Source: Dillenia suffruticosa
Taxonomy: Eukaryota > Streptophyta > Magnoliopsida > Dilleniales > Dilleniaceae
NCBI GenBank assembly: GCA_033439265.1
Contig: JAVTVX010000021.1
Location: 16,767,001 to 16,831,000, forward strand
Reading direction: 5' to 3'
Length of the DNA stretch: 64,000 bases
The position numbers were made by a program, and so were the translations under genes. Positions 18,090 through 61,887 of this stretch are shown piece after piece; the stretch's first letter is position 1, and each line of letters opens with the position of its first letter. The notes under the pieces were generated by a model. The model searched no databases. It was given only the letters and a program-made list of their open reading frames with translations, and was not told where the DNA came from.

Positions 18090-19103
18090 TCTGGGTTTAT
18101 TCGATATGTGGAAGATGGGAGGGTGGCGGGTGGTAGGGACCATTCACATTCAACCCTCTCCTCCGTCTCCCACATTTTTCACTCGGCATTCACAACTCTT
18201 CTCCTCTTCTCTCCTCCTCACGCGATTATTTGGTTAGCTCAGCTGTACATTTCAATTTCCTACTAATCATGAATAATTAAAATCTCTAAATATTTCTCTC
18301 AATTTCGTGCTAATAAATAGTATTTTCCTTAATTGTTTCCTAATAACTCGGGCAATGTTGCTGAGTTTGCGGGATGTCAATTTAAGGTAATTTCTTTTTA
18401 AGATTTCAAGCTGTTGAAGAGATAATTTTCTTTTATTCTAATTAAATAAATTTGAATAATATTAAATGCATCAAATTTCACATAATAATCTATAATAGTA
18501 AAACATAAATTTAACTCGTTACTATTATTATTTGAGAAAATATTAGTAATATAAACATTCTGTATATTATTGTTAGAAAATAATATGGCATCTTAGGCGG
18601 CATATATTGAGTGGGGCCTATCTGCTTGTCGGTTGTAAAGTCCGGATCTCCCAAAATTCAAAACCATATTACACCTTTTCTTTTTTAATCACACATTTCA
18701 ATTCTTGAATTTAATACGTAAATTTGGGTTGTCCATTTCATTTAATATTGGTAGTGGGGCCGCATCGTTGGATAGAGCATGGGCAACGACGTGGGCTTGA
18801 CCAAATTTAGCTTCGGGCTAATCTAGGTGCCACGGACACCTGCGTTATGCCCTCTGGGACTTCCGCCCAGGTTTGCAACCCACATACTGAGTTTACGATG
18901 TTCATACCAGATTAATTATGTAACTCAAATATCAATTGATCTAAAATCAACCAAAAAAGAAAATAAAATAAAATAAAAACAGGGTTTGGGGGCTGGCCAG
19001 GACGGAGAATGTAACTGATTTTGGAAATAGTAGAATAGTAGTGATTTTTCTTTTTTAAATTTAATTTAATATATGTAATTATGAATTAACCACTGTTACA
19101 GTT
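18090..19103. other. Promoter-side and intergenic DNA
   Basis: AT-rich DNA upstream of the minus-strand small gene. A GC-richer patch at about 18750-18900 may be an old repeat but has no diagnostic ends. Nothing else recognised. Confidence 0.4.
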
Positions 19104-20990
19104 GAGAGAGAGAGAGAGATCTGCTGTGCTTATCGTTTCCTTGAAGAAAGAGTGCAGGCTAAGATTACCAACTGGGAAAGGATGCTTCTTAGCACAGCAG
19201 GAAGAGCCACCCTCATCAAATCTGTCACCTTTGCAATCCCAATTTATACTATGCAAACAACTTGGCTGCCGGAAGTTACCTGCAGAAGGCTGGATAAGAT
19301 GAGTCGAGATTTCTTGTGGGGGGACATGCCTAACAGAAGGAAAATTCACCCTATCAACTGGTATCAAGTCCGCAAAAGAAAGAAAGAAGGTGGCTGTGGT
19401 CTAAGACGCTCCGGAGGAAACAATATTGCCCCCCTCTCTAAGCTTGCATGGAGAATAAATCATAATGACAACGCTCTTTGGTGTCTGAACCTTCTTGGTA
19501 AATATCTAAATCAAGAAAGCCTTCTCCAAGCTTGCAAGAAGCCCATCAGTTCTCCAGTCTGGAGGGGAATTATAAGGAGCAGGTTCTGCGACATGAAGGG
19601 TACCAAATAGAGAGTAGGTAATGGCCTTGATATAAACTTTTGGCAAGATCTTTAGGCAAGAAATGATAAGTTATTAGACCACGCTCTCATCCCTAAAGAT
19701 CAGATCCTCCTTAACACAAAAGTCAGCTCATTCATCACCAGCAAAAGGAAATAGGACATTGAAGAGCCGTCGAAGATCCTTTCCCGCCAAAAAAGTTGAA
19801 GAAGTTAGAGCCATCATCCTTCCCATGTGTAGAGAAGATAGAGACAGTTTCTTCTGGAAAGCCTCCCCAGATGGCACCTTCTCTGTGATCTCAGCTTACA
19901 GTCTGCTTTGCTCTGAAGATCCCCCTCAAAGTTGGAATTGGATTTGGAAAATTGTCTGCCCAGAAAGAGTCAGATTCTTTGTCTGGCTTGCTAGAAGAGG
20001 GAAAATCCTTACCAAATCTGAGAAAGTCAGAAGAAAGCTTTCAAGCGATCCCCTATGCCCTATCTGCAGAAGGGAAGAAGAATCCATTCTCCACCAACTG
20101 AGAGATTGCGGTTGGTGCAAAGAAGTCCTTTAATTGACAACTCCAAGCAAACAGAGGCTTAATTTAACTCCTCAGCAGCTTAATGGCTCAAATATAACAC
20201 CACCTATCACAAAGGCACTCATGACTGGCTTCCCATTTGGCACATTTGGAAGGCCAGATGTAAATTCGTGTTTGAAAATTCCACTCCAAATGCTAAGACC
20301 ACTGTTGTTCAATTTAAGCTTTTCTCCGCTAACATGGCTCTTGCTTATGTTCAAAGCTCCAAGCCCAAGCAGCCTCACCCCATTCTGGTAAGTCCCCCTC
20401 CTGTGGATTCAATTAAGCTCAACACTGATGGCTCCGTGAAGATTGCAACAGGAAAGGCAAGTGTAGGAGGGCTTTACAGAGATCACCATGGAAACTGGAT
20501 TCTTGGCTACACCATTACAATAGGCATCTCAGATAGCCTCTCTACTGAATTATGGGGCATTAGAGTAGGTTTGAAAATAGCCGGTGAAAAAGGCTACTCT
20601 AACATGATCATTGAATCAGATTCTGCCACTCTCATATCCCTCCTCAGCAAAGGTGTGACCTCCTCCCACCCTCTCTTTCCAACCATCAAGGACTGCAGAA
20701 ACCTCATCTCCTCCATTGCCTCTTTTAAGATTGCTCACACCTTCAGAGAAGGCAACAAGTGTGCTGATCACTTGGTGAACCTCACGTATTCAAATCCGCC
20801 AGGATTACTTACTCTCCAAGCCCACCCCCCAGCAGCCTTCGGCGTCCCCTGCATGAAGACATACTGGGCATCCCCTCGATGAGGATTTAGTTTTTTCTTG
20901 TTGAGCCTTGGCCGGAGTTTTGCTTGTTTTAGGCTTCTTATGTACCCACCAAAAAAAAAAAAGGCACCAGAGAGAGAGAGAACTGCTGTG
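19104..20990 (+). mobile_element. 5'-truncated L1-type LINE with RNase H, with target-site duplications
   Basis: The body is 19129-20962. It ends in a 12-base poly-A (20951-20962). It is flanked by GAGAGAGATCTGCTGTG (ending 19128) and GAGAGAGAACTGCTGTG (ending 20990), a target duplication of about 17-23 bases with one mismatch in the non-repetitive part. The remaining coding parts, in order, are the end of the reverse transcriptase and linker (MQAKITNWERMLLSTAGR, DFLWGDM), a zf-RVT zinc finger (CPICRREEESILHQLRDC) and an RNase H domain (LNTDGSVKIATGKASVGG, then ESDSAT and FREGNKCADHLV). The RNase H block (20268-20882) is open. The RT/zf-RVT part has several in-frame stops, such as the one after GTK at 19608 and after FWQDL. 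The endonuclease, ORF1 and most of the RT are absent, as is usual for 5'-truncated LINE insertions. Confidence 0.92.
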
Positions 20991-38631: not shown

Positions 38632-38955
38632 GAGAGTGAGAAACGAATAGGAGTATCAGAGCTCTTTCTGCTGATGCCGGGAAGCTTCAGATTCATGGAG
38701 GACATTTTAATAGGACAATGGGAATGATAAGGACGAGAGACAGGAGCAAGAATGGGAAACCCTTGCAGGGGAACGTTTCTGAGCATCGAAGCCATTTAAT
38801 CTGTGCAGGCCCTCATGCGCTCCTTCTTCTCCAACTCCAACAATCACGATCTTGATGCTGTCTTGTCTTGCGATTTCAGATGCTTAGTGAAGCGCGATAT
38901 GATTGCCGTCCTCTCCGAGCTCCTCCGCCAAAACTACTGCTTCCTTGCTCTCAAG

Positions 38956-40044
38956 GTTGGTTCTTCTTCGGCTGCTGGATTCTCTTTCACCTCTTAATTT
39001 CCTTTGCAAAATTGAACCAAACCCAATTGTATGGTATGTATAATGGTTTCTTTCCCTCATCGATGCCATTATCAACCTTCTAGGACTGCTACTCACTCAC
39101 TAGTTGTGTTGTGCCAATGACTTTTCCCAATGAGAGAGATTGAGAGAGAGACAGAGAGAGAGAGACAGAGAGGGTTTAGGAGTCATGAGGTAGATTTCGT
39201 GGCATAATTTGAAACCTTCCCATCAGAGAGCCCATTTACTGCTGAGCTGTGTTTCTCGATTTCACACATGCATCCCCAACACCTCCTATCTCATTTGTTA
39301 GGAAACGAATTTTAAAGTGTTGGGGCAATATGATACTAGAAGGCTAAAGGGATGTTCTTAAAATCAAATCAATTTTTCTCCTAGGAAAGGGATGCAAGGC
39401 CAATCGGCACACAACCGTGAGGTCCTCCTTCTGCTGTGAAAGTCCGGTTTGAGCCATCATGTGTGGTATCTAATTGGACCGTACGGGTTTTCAAAAATAA
39501 TAAAATATAAAACCATATGTGATATTAGTGGCACTTGGAGAAATTGTCTGCAAGCCTTTTGCACTCTTTAGTGCTTATGTTTCATCTCTGCTAGAAGCTT
39601 GTAAAGAAAATTAGTCTTCTCACATGGTCACATTCTAAATTTCTTGGAGTATAAGTTGGTTTCTTTTATAATGGAATACTTGGTATCTTACCATATCCAC
39701 TGTTCCTTTCATTAAAAAGGTTTGGAGGATATGACAACACTATGAGGCTAACTTATGGATGACAACTTCCCTTTGCAACAATTAATCAGATATGAGCATA
39801 TAGAAAAGTTCCCCTGATTGGCTTGTGTAAGTGCCAAGGTGCGTACCTTTCTCTGTGGGGTAAATAGCATCATTAAAATATAACATGAGCACTGTGGGCA
39901 TCTATCCATATGTTAATTCTTCTAATTCCTTGTAAACTCCTTTTTCTTTTTTGGGGTAGGCATGTGATATTGGATGTGCTCATTGTCTTTTCCTTGTAAA
40001 TTCTCAGTTTGTTTTTAGTTTACCAAGTCTATTAGGATTCTCTC
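38956..40044. other. Remnant intron of the PPR pseudogene
   Basis: AT-rich non-coding DNA following the GT donor at 38956, with a short GA-repeat stretch at about 39133-39170. No gene recognised. Confidence 0.45.
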
Positions 40045-42231
40045 TGTAACACCCCTACCCCAGGGTGCTACCAGTGTGAAGGTATCGACGGACTGCTGAA
40101 TCGGTTAACACCATCATCAGCCTAACTAGACATCTTAAAATATAAACAAATAATATAATGAATAGCAAAAAAAAAATAAATACTTTATAAAATAAAAGTT
40201 TGACTAAATTAATTGATAGAATAAGTCGAATTTTCTCAAATTTCAGATCAATATAACTAAATTAATAAAACAAAATATCAAACTAAATAAATTGGTTCAA
40301 ATTACAAATTTTTTCAAAATAAACGAAATATGAAAGAAGATATTCTAAAAGTCAAATACTCGTATGCAAGTATTCTAACCTCCATGGAACTCTAAACTCC
40401 ATCCCACCTGAACTCAACATCGACCGGATGAACGATCAAAAAAGAGTGTAAATTGTGAACTATTCCTCACCTGGGAAATGTAAGAAAATGACGTGAGATA
40501 AAAAGGTCTTAGTGAGTGTAACTAGACTCACAACGGGACTTATGTTCAAATACACAAAAATCCGTATAAAATTAGTAATAAAAAATCCATGTATGAGAGT
40601 TCATATAAAAAATAGGGCCTATGGGATTCAATAAAAATAAATATTTCAAAATTCACGCTAGTTCGCATTCAAAACACAAAACAATCATATTATGTAACAG
40701 GCTCGGGATCGGTCTAGGGCATAACAAAAGCCATCGGCCAGCAATGATATCAAAAAAATAATGTCTTCCTCTACCTCTAGGTGTTAAGGTATTATATGCT
40801 ATATACATGTAGGTAGACCTACATCTAGATTCTTCATAATATCCAAATTTAAATCATAAAACCATTTGTACAACCAAAAGATTCCGAACTCATACTCCAA
40901 AATAATACAACAGTCCCAAATAAGATCATATGCAATATGTCACCCATGAGGTCAATATATATCAAAACAGATATATTTCAAGATTCTACGTGATTATAAA
41001 AATAAAAAGATCGGATACTATCCCGTATACAACTAACAATTATCATCATAGTTTTCAAAACATACATATACATAAATAAATAAATTATGGACCAAATCTT
41101 ATTAACATGAATAGTAAATAAAAGAGATTGAAAATGACTGATTAAAATTGTTGTTTTATTTATTATTCATATGTTAACGTGATTTGGTGCAAGATTTATT
41201 TATTTGTATGCATGTTTTGAAAACTATGATAATGATTGCCAGTTATATATAGGATAATACTCGATTTTTTTATGATCATGTGAAATTTTGAAATTTATCG
41301 ACTTTGATATATATTGTGCTTGTGGGTGACATATTGCATATGCTATGTTTTTGTTTGAGAGTGTTGTATTATCTGAGAGTATGAGTTAAAAATCTTTTGG
41401 TTGTACGGATGGTTTTATAGTTTGGATTTAGATATTGTGGAGGACCTAAACGCAGGTCTGCTTACTCGCATATAGCATGTAATGCCTTGACATCTAGATA
41501 TAGCATGTAATGCCTTGACATCTAGAGGTAGAGGGAAGACATTATTTTTTTCGAGATCATTGATGGCTGATGGCTTTTGGTATGCTTTGGATCGACCCGA
41601 ACCTGTTACATAATGCGATGTGTTTTGTATTTTGAATGTGAATTGGCATGAATTTTGAAATGTTTATTTTTATTGAAACTCATGGATCGTATTTTTTATT
41701 ACTGATTTATACGAATTTTAGTGCATTTGAAAATAAATCCCATTGTGAGCCTATTAACGCTCACTGAGATCTTTTTGTCTCACGTTATTTTCTCGTGTTT
41801 CCTAGATGAGGATTAGTTCACAGTTTACACTCTTTTTCGATCGTTCATCCGGTCGACATTGAGCTCAAGTGGGATGGAGTTTGGATCTCCATGGAGATTA
41901 TGATATTTACATGCGAATATTTGGTTTTTAGAATATTTTCTCTCATATTTCGTTAATTTTGGAAAAGTTTATAATTTGAACTAATTTATTCAGTTTGATA
42001 ATTTATTTTATTAATTTAGCTACATTAACAAGAAATTTGAGAAAACTCGACTTATTCTATTCATTTAATTTGGTCAAACTTTTATTTTATAAAATATTCT
42101 TTTCTTTTCGCTGTTCATTATATTATTTGTTTATATTCTAAGGTATCTAGTTAGACTGGAGATGGTGTTGGTCAGCTCAGTAACCCGCCAATGCCTTCAC
42201 GCCAGTAACACCTTGTGGTAGGGTTGTTTCA
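40045..42231. mobile_element. 2.2 kb palindromic LTR-type insertion with 5-bp target duplication (fossil)
   Basis: The left arm (40045 to about 41125) and right arm (about 41150-42231) are inverted copies of each other, separated by a loop of only about 25 bases centred near 41138. Left-end TGTAACACCCCTACC matches the reverse complement of the right end, TGAAACAACCCTACC. Internal pairs include GAACGATC (40430) with GATCGTTC (41839), and CCAAATCTTATTAACATGAA (about 41093) with its partner near 41172. By eye, identity is about 80-85 percent. The element starts TG, ends CA and is flanked by CTCTC on both sides (40040-40044 and 42232-42236), as expected for integrase-type insertion. No coding region was found. 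It may be two opposed LTR-like units or an unusual foldback element. Confidence 0.85.
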
Positions 42232-42657
42232 CTCTCATCATGTCATTGGCTGATAAAGGTTTTCGAAGAATTATGGAAGGAGTGGTATAAGCCTCATGAT
42301 TCCTTGTATGTAGACATATTGAAACATTGGTTAGCAATGGCTTTTCTAAAGAGGTTGAACAACTTTTCATGTATTTGAGAACAGAGAGTATGATAGAGCC
42401 TGGCAATGAGGGCTTTAATACTCTTAGTAAAAATTTTGATAGGTTTTGACCTTACTGGGCTTGCAATAAAGTGCTTTTACTTTATGAAAGAATTAGAATG
42501 TGAACCAGATAAGTCATCATTTATGCTGTTCGTGAATGGGTTGGAATCAAAGGGAGAAACAGGTCTGTCAACTACTTTGAGGCAGGAAGCTAAGAAAATT
42601 TTTGGTGAATTTATAGGCTTTATGGACCTGAAGGAGATGAGTGTTGCCGATAGCTGA

Positions 42658-60794: not shown

Positions 60795-61887
60795 GACATG
60801 TACCGAAATAACATAAAAAAAAATTTTAAAACAACCCGAACGAGAAAAAATTTCTCCAAATAACTCGAATTTGTCGGGAGTTGGAGACGCGATCACTGTG
60901 TCGCGTCTTCAACCCGCGACAAAGACAAAGTCCAGAGAGAGAGAGAGAGAGAGGAGCCTGCGGGGGGGAGGGAGAGAGGGGAGGAGAGCGGCGGGGGGCG
61001 GAGGGGTGAGGGAGGAGCGCGGTGGGGGGCAGCGGCGGGACGGAGAGAGAGGGGAGGACCGCTGCGAAATGCGGAGGGGGAAGGAGGGAGAGAGAGGGGA
61101 GGGCCGCAGAGGGGGGAGGGAGGGAGAGAAAGAGGGGAGGAGCGCGGCACTGGGCGGAGGGGAGAAGGAGAGACAGAGGGGAGAGTCGCAAGGGGTGCGG
61201 AGGGGGGGAGGGAGAGAGAGAGGGGAGGGCCGCAAGGGGCGGAGGGTCGCGGGAGACGGAGGGGGGGGAGGGAAGGAGGGAGGGAGAGAGAGGAGAGGGC
61301 GGCGGGGGATCCGCCAGAGGAGGGAGAGAGAGAAAGAGGGGAGGAGAGTGGTAGCGCTGCTCTCCTCCTCTAGCTTTGTCTCTCTCTCCCTCCCCCTCCG
61401 CCCTGTCTCCCCTCTGTCTCTCTCCTCCCCCCTCTGCCCCCCGACTCCTCCCCTTTTTCTCTCTCCCCTCCCCCTCCGCCCCCTTGCCGCGCTTCTCCCC
61501 TCTTTCTCTCTCTCTCCCCCTCCGCCGCCCGCCGCCCGCCGCCCGCCCCCTCCTCTCTCTCTCTCTCTCTCCCCCGACGGACCCCACACCGCCCTCCCCT
61601 CTTTCTCTCCCTCCCTTCCCGCTCCGCGGCCCTCCCCTCTCTCTCTCTCCCTCCCTCCCCCTCTGCACCCCGCCGCGGTCTTCCCCCCACCTCGCTCCTC
61701 CCTCCCCCCCACTCTCCCTCCGCCCGTGGACTCCTCTCTCTCTCTCTCTCTGGATTTTGTCGCGAATTGAAGAAGCAACACAGTGTGTCACGTTTCCAAC
61801 TTTCGATAAATTCGGGTAATTTGAAAAAACGTTTTCCGGTTCGGGTTGTTTTAAAAAAAAAAAATTTATGTAATTTTGTTACATGTC
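60795..61887. repeat. 1.1 kb foldback with homopurine and homopyrimidine arms
   Basis: The outer parts of the arms are inverted copies: GACATGTA with AAACAACCCGAAC and ACTGTGTCGC on the left (60795-60945) pair with the right side (61745-61887), which reads ACACAGTGTGTCAC, GGTTCGGGTTGTTTT and TACATGTC. Inside, 60946-61360 is nearly all A and G with short GCCGC/GCGCGG islands. By contrast, 61361-61760 is nearly all C and T. Within each arm, units of roughly 60 bases recur (GAGAGAGGGGAGG, GCCGC, GCGGAGGGGGAGGGAG), so this looks like a minisatellite grown inside an inverted repeat. The long open frames on both strands are a by-product of composition. Confidence 0.85.

Follow-up and report, generated by a model that had tools for sequence, protein, structure and literature searches.

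A palindromic insertion in a PPR-like gene of Dillenia suffruticosa, a probable by-product of Ty3/gypsy reverse transcription

An ordinary LTR insertion has one U3 end and one U5 end. The same holds for the solo LTRs of plant Ty3/gypsy elements, which consist of LTR sequence with TG...CA ends and a 5-bp target duplication, the internal region being missing. Plant foldback and long-TIR DNA transposons, such as the foldback MULEs, have long inverted arms with little between them; the target duplications of MULEs are about 9 bp long, and the members of a foldback family share one junction. Self-priming of minus-strand strong-stop DNA has reportedly been studied in vitro with HIV-1. Snap-back strong-stop DNA is a failed product of in vitro reactions that is suppressed by nucleocapsid protein.

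Here we describe a palindrome from the genome of Dillenia suffruticosa, located in a stretch of 64,000 nucleotides (hereafter the window), that resembles each of these systems in part. It shares LTR sequence, TG...CA ends, a 5-bp duplication and the lack of an internal region with a solo LTR, but it has two U5 ends and no U3-side part. Its long inverted arms with little between them recall foldback elements, whereas its duplication has another length, its arms are LTR ends and its junction is unique among the places scored. Like self-primed HIV-1 strong-stop DNA, it has an inverted U5-side copy, a short loop and the U5 outer end that would be expected; the HIV-1 molecule, however, is an in vitro product, whereas in the present case we infer integration. 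No description of palindromic insertions with two U5 ends was recognised in the literature searched, as judged by titles and the beginnings of abstracts.

The palindrome, its empty counterpart and the host gene

Positions 40045-42231 of the window form an inverted repeat of 2187 nt (~2.2 kb), with arms of ~1.08 kb each and a spacer of about 25-30 nt. The full 2187 nt align with their own reverse complement at E = 0. The outer ends, TGTAACAC... on the left and ...GTTTCA on the right, are of the TG...CA type, and CTCTC abuts the palindrome on both sides. Self-alignment and sequence thus confirm the architecture given in the original prediction, namely two inverted arms of ~1.08 kb, a loop of ~25 bases, TG...CA ends and CTCTC flanks. 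The accompanying term “near-perfect” was an overstatement: the arms (40045-41123 and 41154-42231) are 77.1% identical over 1118 aligned columns with gaps included and 81.8% identical across 1043 ungapped columns, so that 18% of the latter differ, and the divergence of 15-20% estimated by eye was correct. Inverted pairs of at least 60 nt within 5 kb were sought throughout the window; besides the palindrome, the longest measures 100 nt (70% identity). The features of the insertion are as follows.

40040..40044, no strand: target-site duplication, left copy CTCTC (sequence; empty site on C8, see below)
40045..41123, minus strand: left arm, the final ~1.08 kb of a Ty3/gypsy LTR, on its U5 side, in reverse complement, with the LTR 3' end facing out leftwards; its homologue in non-palindromic LTR copies is their first ~1.1 kb, read in arm orientation
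41124..41153, no strand: centre or spacer, mostly LTR sequence that prolongs the right arm until its distance from the LTR end is about 1.10 kb (multiple alignment)
41154..42231, plus strand: right arm, the same part of the LTR read forward, with the LTR 3' end facing out rightwards (self-alignment, multiple alignment)
42232..42236, no strand: target-site duplication, right copy CTCTC (sequence; empty site on C8)

The right arm carries a private, perfect 28-nt tandem duplication at 41470-41525, which the left arm lacks. Elsewhere in the window, 60824-61856 is a GA/CT-rich stretch of low complexity in which many inverted repeats overlap and both strands have long open frames, and 19065-20882 holds open frames that by eye look like pieces of a non-LTR retrotransposon (a reverse-transcriptase tail and an RNase H-like part).

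When joined with a single CTCTC, the flanks of the palindrome match G000:C8:132581-133067 with 90% identity, unbroken through the junction (...GGATTCTCTG|ATCTTG on C8, ...GGATTCTCTC|ATCATG in the window minus the insert). The C8 sequence is a paralogous duplicated segment that contains exons of the same gene, is free of the insert and has one copy of the 5-mer. Because this duplicate has the same site without the insert, the sequence comparison indicates that the 2187 bp and the 5-bp duplication arrived together, in a single event. At the centre of the palindrome, multiple alignment places the end of the left arm at AATAAAAGAG, and the right arm goes ~24 nt beyond, to TTTTCAA. Both breaks lie within LTR sequence, and neither host DNA nor a second target duplication was found between them. 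Two separate neighbouring insertions, the case that was to overturn the original prediction, are a misfit for such a centre and were rejected. Palindromes are also a known class of assembly and library fold-back artefacts. We rejected this explanation too and consider it next to impossible: an artefact should have nearly identical arms, whereas those observed are only 82% identical, and the limits of the insertion are set precisely by the empty site in the paralogous segment.

The palindrome is flanked to the left and right by exon pieces of a PPR-like gene, at the following positions of the window.

38800..38958, plus strand: exon 1 of the PPR-like host gene, last open piece (...ELLRQNYCFLALKV); limits predicted from the C8 counterpart, where the exon is one open frame (L032), whereas the window changes frame
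42259..42657, plus strand: exon 2 of the PPR-like gene, frameshifted here; open over 133 codons on C8, from which the limits are predicted

In the C8 counterpart, the open exon 1 ends in ...LALKV and the open exon 2 starts with VFEELRKEDWYKP... Exon 2 matches PPR_2 (E 1.5e-8) in Pfam, no Pfam family was matched by exon 1, and the best solved relatives of the gene product are PPR proteins. Since such pieces flank it, the insert lies in an intron of that gene, of which the copy in the window is frameshifted, and ends 27 nt ahead of the predicted start of exon 2. The earlier placement of the palindrome inside a host gene is therefore supported.

Relation of the arms to a Ty3/gypsy LTR family

With 40 of 105 candidates scored, a search of the genome that holds the window (596 Mb, 37 contigs) with the left arm yielded at least 45 matches. 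Of these, 30, including the window's own two arms, span 996 or more of the 1076 bases. Identity was 75-81%, except for the query and a piece of 69 nt at 87%. Twenty loci of ~10 kb each were fetched and inspected base by base; other copies were judged from match positions. Many copies among the matches listed stay alike past the arm (in arm orientation), out to about 2.5-2.8 kb; for L021, L023 and L026 the match to L009 stops sooner, at 1.18-1.27 kb. When 11 copies are aligned, members with unlike flanks diverge near ...GGCCCTCACA (L013, L024) or variants of it. We read this boundary as the 5' end of the LTR, whose length would then be about 2.7 kb. The U3 start of the LTR is TGTGAGGGCC... in L024, and its 3' end is ...GGGGTGTTACA in L009.

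A PBS-like sequence adjoins the arm end in five of the 20 fetched loci. In L012 and L013, TTGGTATCAGAG stands four bases past the LTR 3' end and is identical to the site at which initiator-methionine tRNA primes plant LTR elements; L009 and L010 have near versions, and the version in L011 is degenerate. The Pfam families matched by open pieces from the internal region are RVP_2 (E 1.1e-12 in L010, 1.7e-23 in L011) and Integrase_H2C2 (E 5.6e-14 in L019). No Pfam match above the cut-off was obtained with a gag-region piece or with pieces that by eye resemble reverse transcriptase, the integrase core and the integrase tail. Given the homology to the LTR 3' end, the adjoining PBS-like sequence and the RVP_2 and Integrase_H2C2 pieces, each arm is the U5-side portion of an old Ty3/gypsy LTR, with both U5 ends outward and the U3-side portion absent on both sides.

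Two marks of LTR retrotransposons are therefore present: the arm is part of an LTR found beside a PBS-like sequence and, in the family, protease and integrase pieces, and the TG...CA ends come with a duplication in the 4-6 bp range. The arrangement of a solo LTR, with one U3 and one U5 end, was not found, as both ends of the palindrome align to the LTR 3' end. The LTR-type integration suggested earlier is supported by this assignment of the arms together with the empty C8 site and its single 5-mer.

An ordinary solo LTR or element could also have inserted first and become an inverted duplication through later rearrangement at the locus. Rearrangements are common in plant DNA, and this family has many LTR copies here: the pooled searches gave at least 62 arm places in at least 49 clusters, after leaving out four split second pieces of the left-arm search. 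The left end of an ordinary insertion is, however, the U3 start seen in L024, whereas here a U5 end is flush with the duplication, and the inverted copy would have had to stop exactly at that point. We regard such a later rearrangement as improbable.

Some copies of the family lie in repetitive surroundings. L012 (G000:C29:4978500-4988400) is an LTR copy surrounded left and right by diverged internal repeats, several hundred to 2500 nt long. At G000:C21:1866321-1867591, three partial arm copies follow each other in one orientation, about 420-530 nt apart, with a two-fold analogue at C21:1953589-1954242; there, an LTR segment seems to have turned into a short tandem array.

At 19 of the 20 fetched loci the arm has no inverted partner. 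The only other U5-out palindrome among them is at about 2777-5551 of L014 (G000:C16:15139200-15149100). Its arms measure ~1.3-1.45 kb, and the LTR end is about 1.45 kb away from its centre, which is unlike that of the window. Since the outer ~140-150 nt of one of its arms are lost, its target duplication is unreadable. Its arms are sisters in the arm tree (96/97) and hence share a recent source. Searches with the centre of the window palindrome as a probe gave at least 86 matches, of which only the window spans the centre, the others ending at or near query position 324-329 or earlier (40 of 65 candidates scored). The L014 centre is likewise spanned by no other scored place (40 of 76 candidates scored). 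At least three cases of opposite-strand arm neighbours occur among the 62 places, namely the two palindromes and the L009/L011 pair, whose members are 6.3 kb apart and look like two elements back to back. Among the clusters of copies counted, at least 49, these two palindromes of the family are the only ones seen.

These counts bear on the explanation that the palindrome belongs to a foldback or long-TIR transposon family and moves as such. The long inverted arms, the TG...CA ends, the 5-bp duplication and the existence of L014 would all agree with it, but several insertions with the same junction were not seen among the places scored, where each centre is spanned solely by its query locus. 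On this ground an active palindromic family was rejected. The differing centres of the two palindromes, the 19 loci without an inverted partner, the five with adjoining PBS-like sequence (one degenerate) and the retroviral protease and integrase pieces in the family also speak against this explanation, which we consider very unlikely.

Divergence, source and pairing of the arms

Pair statistics were calculated for 24 arms (276 pairs), with WL and WR denoting the left and right arm of the window. Mean pair identity is 0.793 (sd 0.013), and the WL-WR pair ranks sixth (0.8178). WL is the closest copy to WR; the closest to WL is L012 (0.8182), with WR second. In the ranking by transversions, L022/L022b, taken to be two LTRs of one element, comes first, L022/WL second and WL-WR third. 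WL and WR share nine derived states, none of them transversions (rank 29 of 276). The arm tree is star-like, with three of 21 inner branches well supported (L022/L022b, 100/99; L014/L014b, 96/97; L009/L028, 97/83). It leaves WL and WR unjoined and places WL elsewhere, weakly (66/73). Constraining WL with WR costs 4.25 log units (p-AU 0.317); the control constraint WL+L012 costs 4.82 (p 0.323), L013+L024, a likely LTR pair of one element, 4.82 (p 0.318), and WR+L013 12.46 (p 0.104). As the likely LTR pair and the WL+L012 control fare alike, this topology test has little power.

The flanks of the window and C8 were compared over four aligned segments (one 69-column match was dropped for its length). 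They differ by 7.05% transitions and 5.79% transversions (175 of 3020 columns), with transversions at 3.7-6.6% per segment and lowest in the junction segment. The two arms differ by 14.7% transitions and 3.5% transversions (37 of 1043 columns). Compared with the flanks, arms have fewer transversions (Fisher p = 0.0046) and more transitions (p = 1.8e-12), a comparison that is a rough clock, as the flanks contain exon sequence. These values fit an insertion that postdates the segment duplication, and because arm transversions fall below those of the flanks, the arms may have been identical at the time of insertion. A single source for both arms is plausible. The original prediction had offered either an old structure or one built from two diverged copies. 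Its age is supported; two diverged sources would agree with a tree that does not join the arms, but they are not needed, given how few transversions separate the arms relative to the flanks.

Decay is transition-dominated in the family generally (the transition/transversion ratio over all arm pairs is 3.2), which is likely due to cytosine methylation, although the context counts are unspecific. A CG-decay signature special to the palindrome was rejected: WL-WR counts are 22/86 for CG, 24/67 for CHG and 107/464 for CHH, and the values for all pairs are 0.37, 0.31 and 0.27, respectively.

If transcribed, the palindrome would fold as had been anticipated: its central 1021 nt are predicted to form one long RNA hairpin of -526.7 kcal/mol, a value without shuffle control. 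This predicted fold, and the intronic position of the palindrome in a host gene that is read on the same strand, would suit a hairpin gene kept by selection for siRNAs against related LTRs. In the sense strand, however, the changes between the arms make 79 G-U pairs and 74 A.C mismatches, so pairing is not kept by base choice, and selection for it was rejected. The arms have also decayed like other copies, and the gene copy is frameshifted. We consider a selected siRNA hairpin highly improbable, and the sequence features gave no sign of a regulatory role.

Origin from a cDNA with two U5 ends

Two U5 ends together with one target duplication point to an aberrant cDNA. We are rather confident that the palindrome was a single insertion with two U5 ends, and it was probably made by integrase from an aberrant palindromic linear Ty3/gypsy cDNA of which both ends were U5. 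The best reading is that a cDNA with two U5 ends, either snapped back (self-primed) or end-joined, was integrated by the integrase of the element. In the snap-back route, minus-strand synthesis would begin at the tRNA primer and copy U5 first. The nascent DNA strand would then snap back about 1.1 kb from its start and prime its own copy. The resulting hairpin could be copied into a linear duplex with two U5 ends, for example with a second tRNA priming at the copy of the primer site just made, and integrase would use both U5 ends. The breaks are near-symmetric, the offset being ~24 nt for the window and ~27-45 nt for L014, and this symmetry, the outward U5 ends and the short asymmetric loop are what fold-back of a nascent minus strand would be expected to leave. 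We nevertheless propose the snap-back step as the source of the palindrome only tentatively, at somewhat short of even chances.

The main rival to snap-back is that two partial cDNAs, both complete at the U5 end, served as the two ends in one integration, and that non-homologous end joining linked their inner ends before or after it. Two U5 ends and one 5-bp duplication would result likewise, and the unequal arm lengths, the arms left unjoined in the tree and the marginally greater closeness of WL to L012 than to WR would be explained. The near-symmetric breaks, however, demand a common stop for both cDNAs, the L014 arms are sisters, and transversions between the window arms are low (rank 3 of 276). 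On balance we hold this joining to be rather unlikely.

Snap-back might have involved strong-stop DNA. Of 12 copies compared, drawn from the 20 loci, 10 keep a TATA-like site 1129 nt from the LTR end. Plant transcription starts about 30 nt below the TATA box, and this site would put the start near 1.10 kb, close to the centre of the window palindrome, as strong-stop DNA needs. The agreement is suggestive only; TATA-like sequence is conserved at three places (134, 1129 and 1607-1609), of which one fits well, so chance may explain it. The L014 centre fits none of the start sites predicted from these three places. Stems for fold-back priming beyond chance were found at the window centre in none of 12 ordinary copies; for the L014 centre, three of 12 copies have stems that reach the 0.05 shuffle level or fall below it. 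That self-primed strong-stop cDNA forms in plant retrotransposon particles, becomes double-ended and integrates via two U5 ends is therefore put forward as a conceivable but doubtful extension of the snap-back route. If it were true, the centre of the palindrome would mark the transcription start of the family, and such insertions would be recurrent fossils (two here) and natural donors of long hairpins.

The palindrome is probably an unusual and rare fossil, a one-off by-product of reverse transcription. Insertions of this kind would be ready-made long hairpins for RNA silencing, a role without support here for the one in the window. If an origin from a two-U5-end cDNA is right, the integrase of a Ty3/gypsy element is able, in a genome, to perform paired integration of two U5 ends, and fold-back errors of cDNA synthesis get into the germ line. 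A U5-out palindrome with a target duplication would then be a signature that can be counted across plant genomes.
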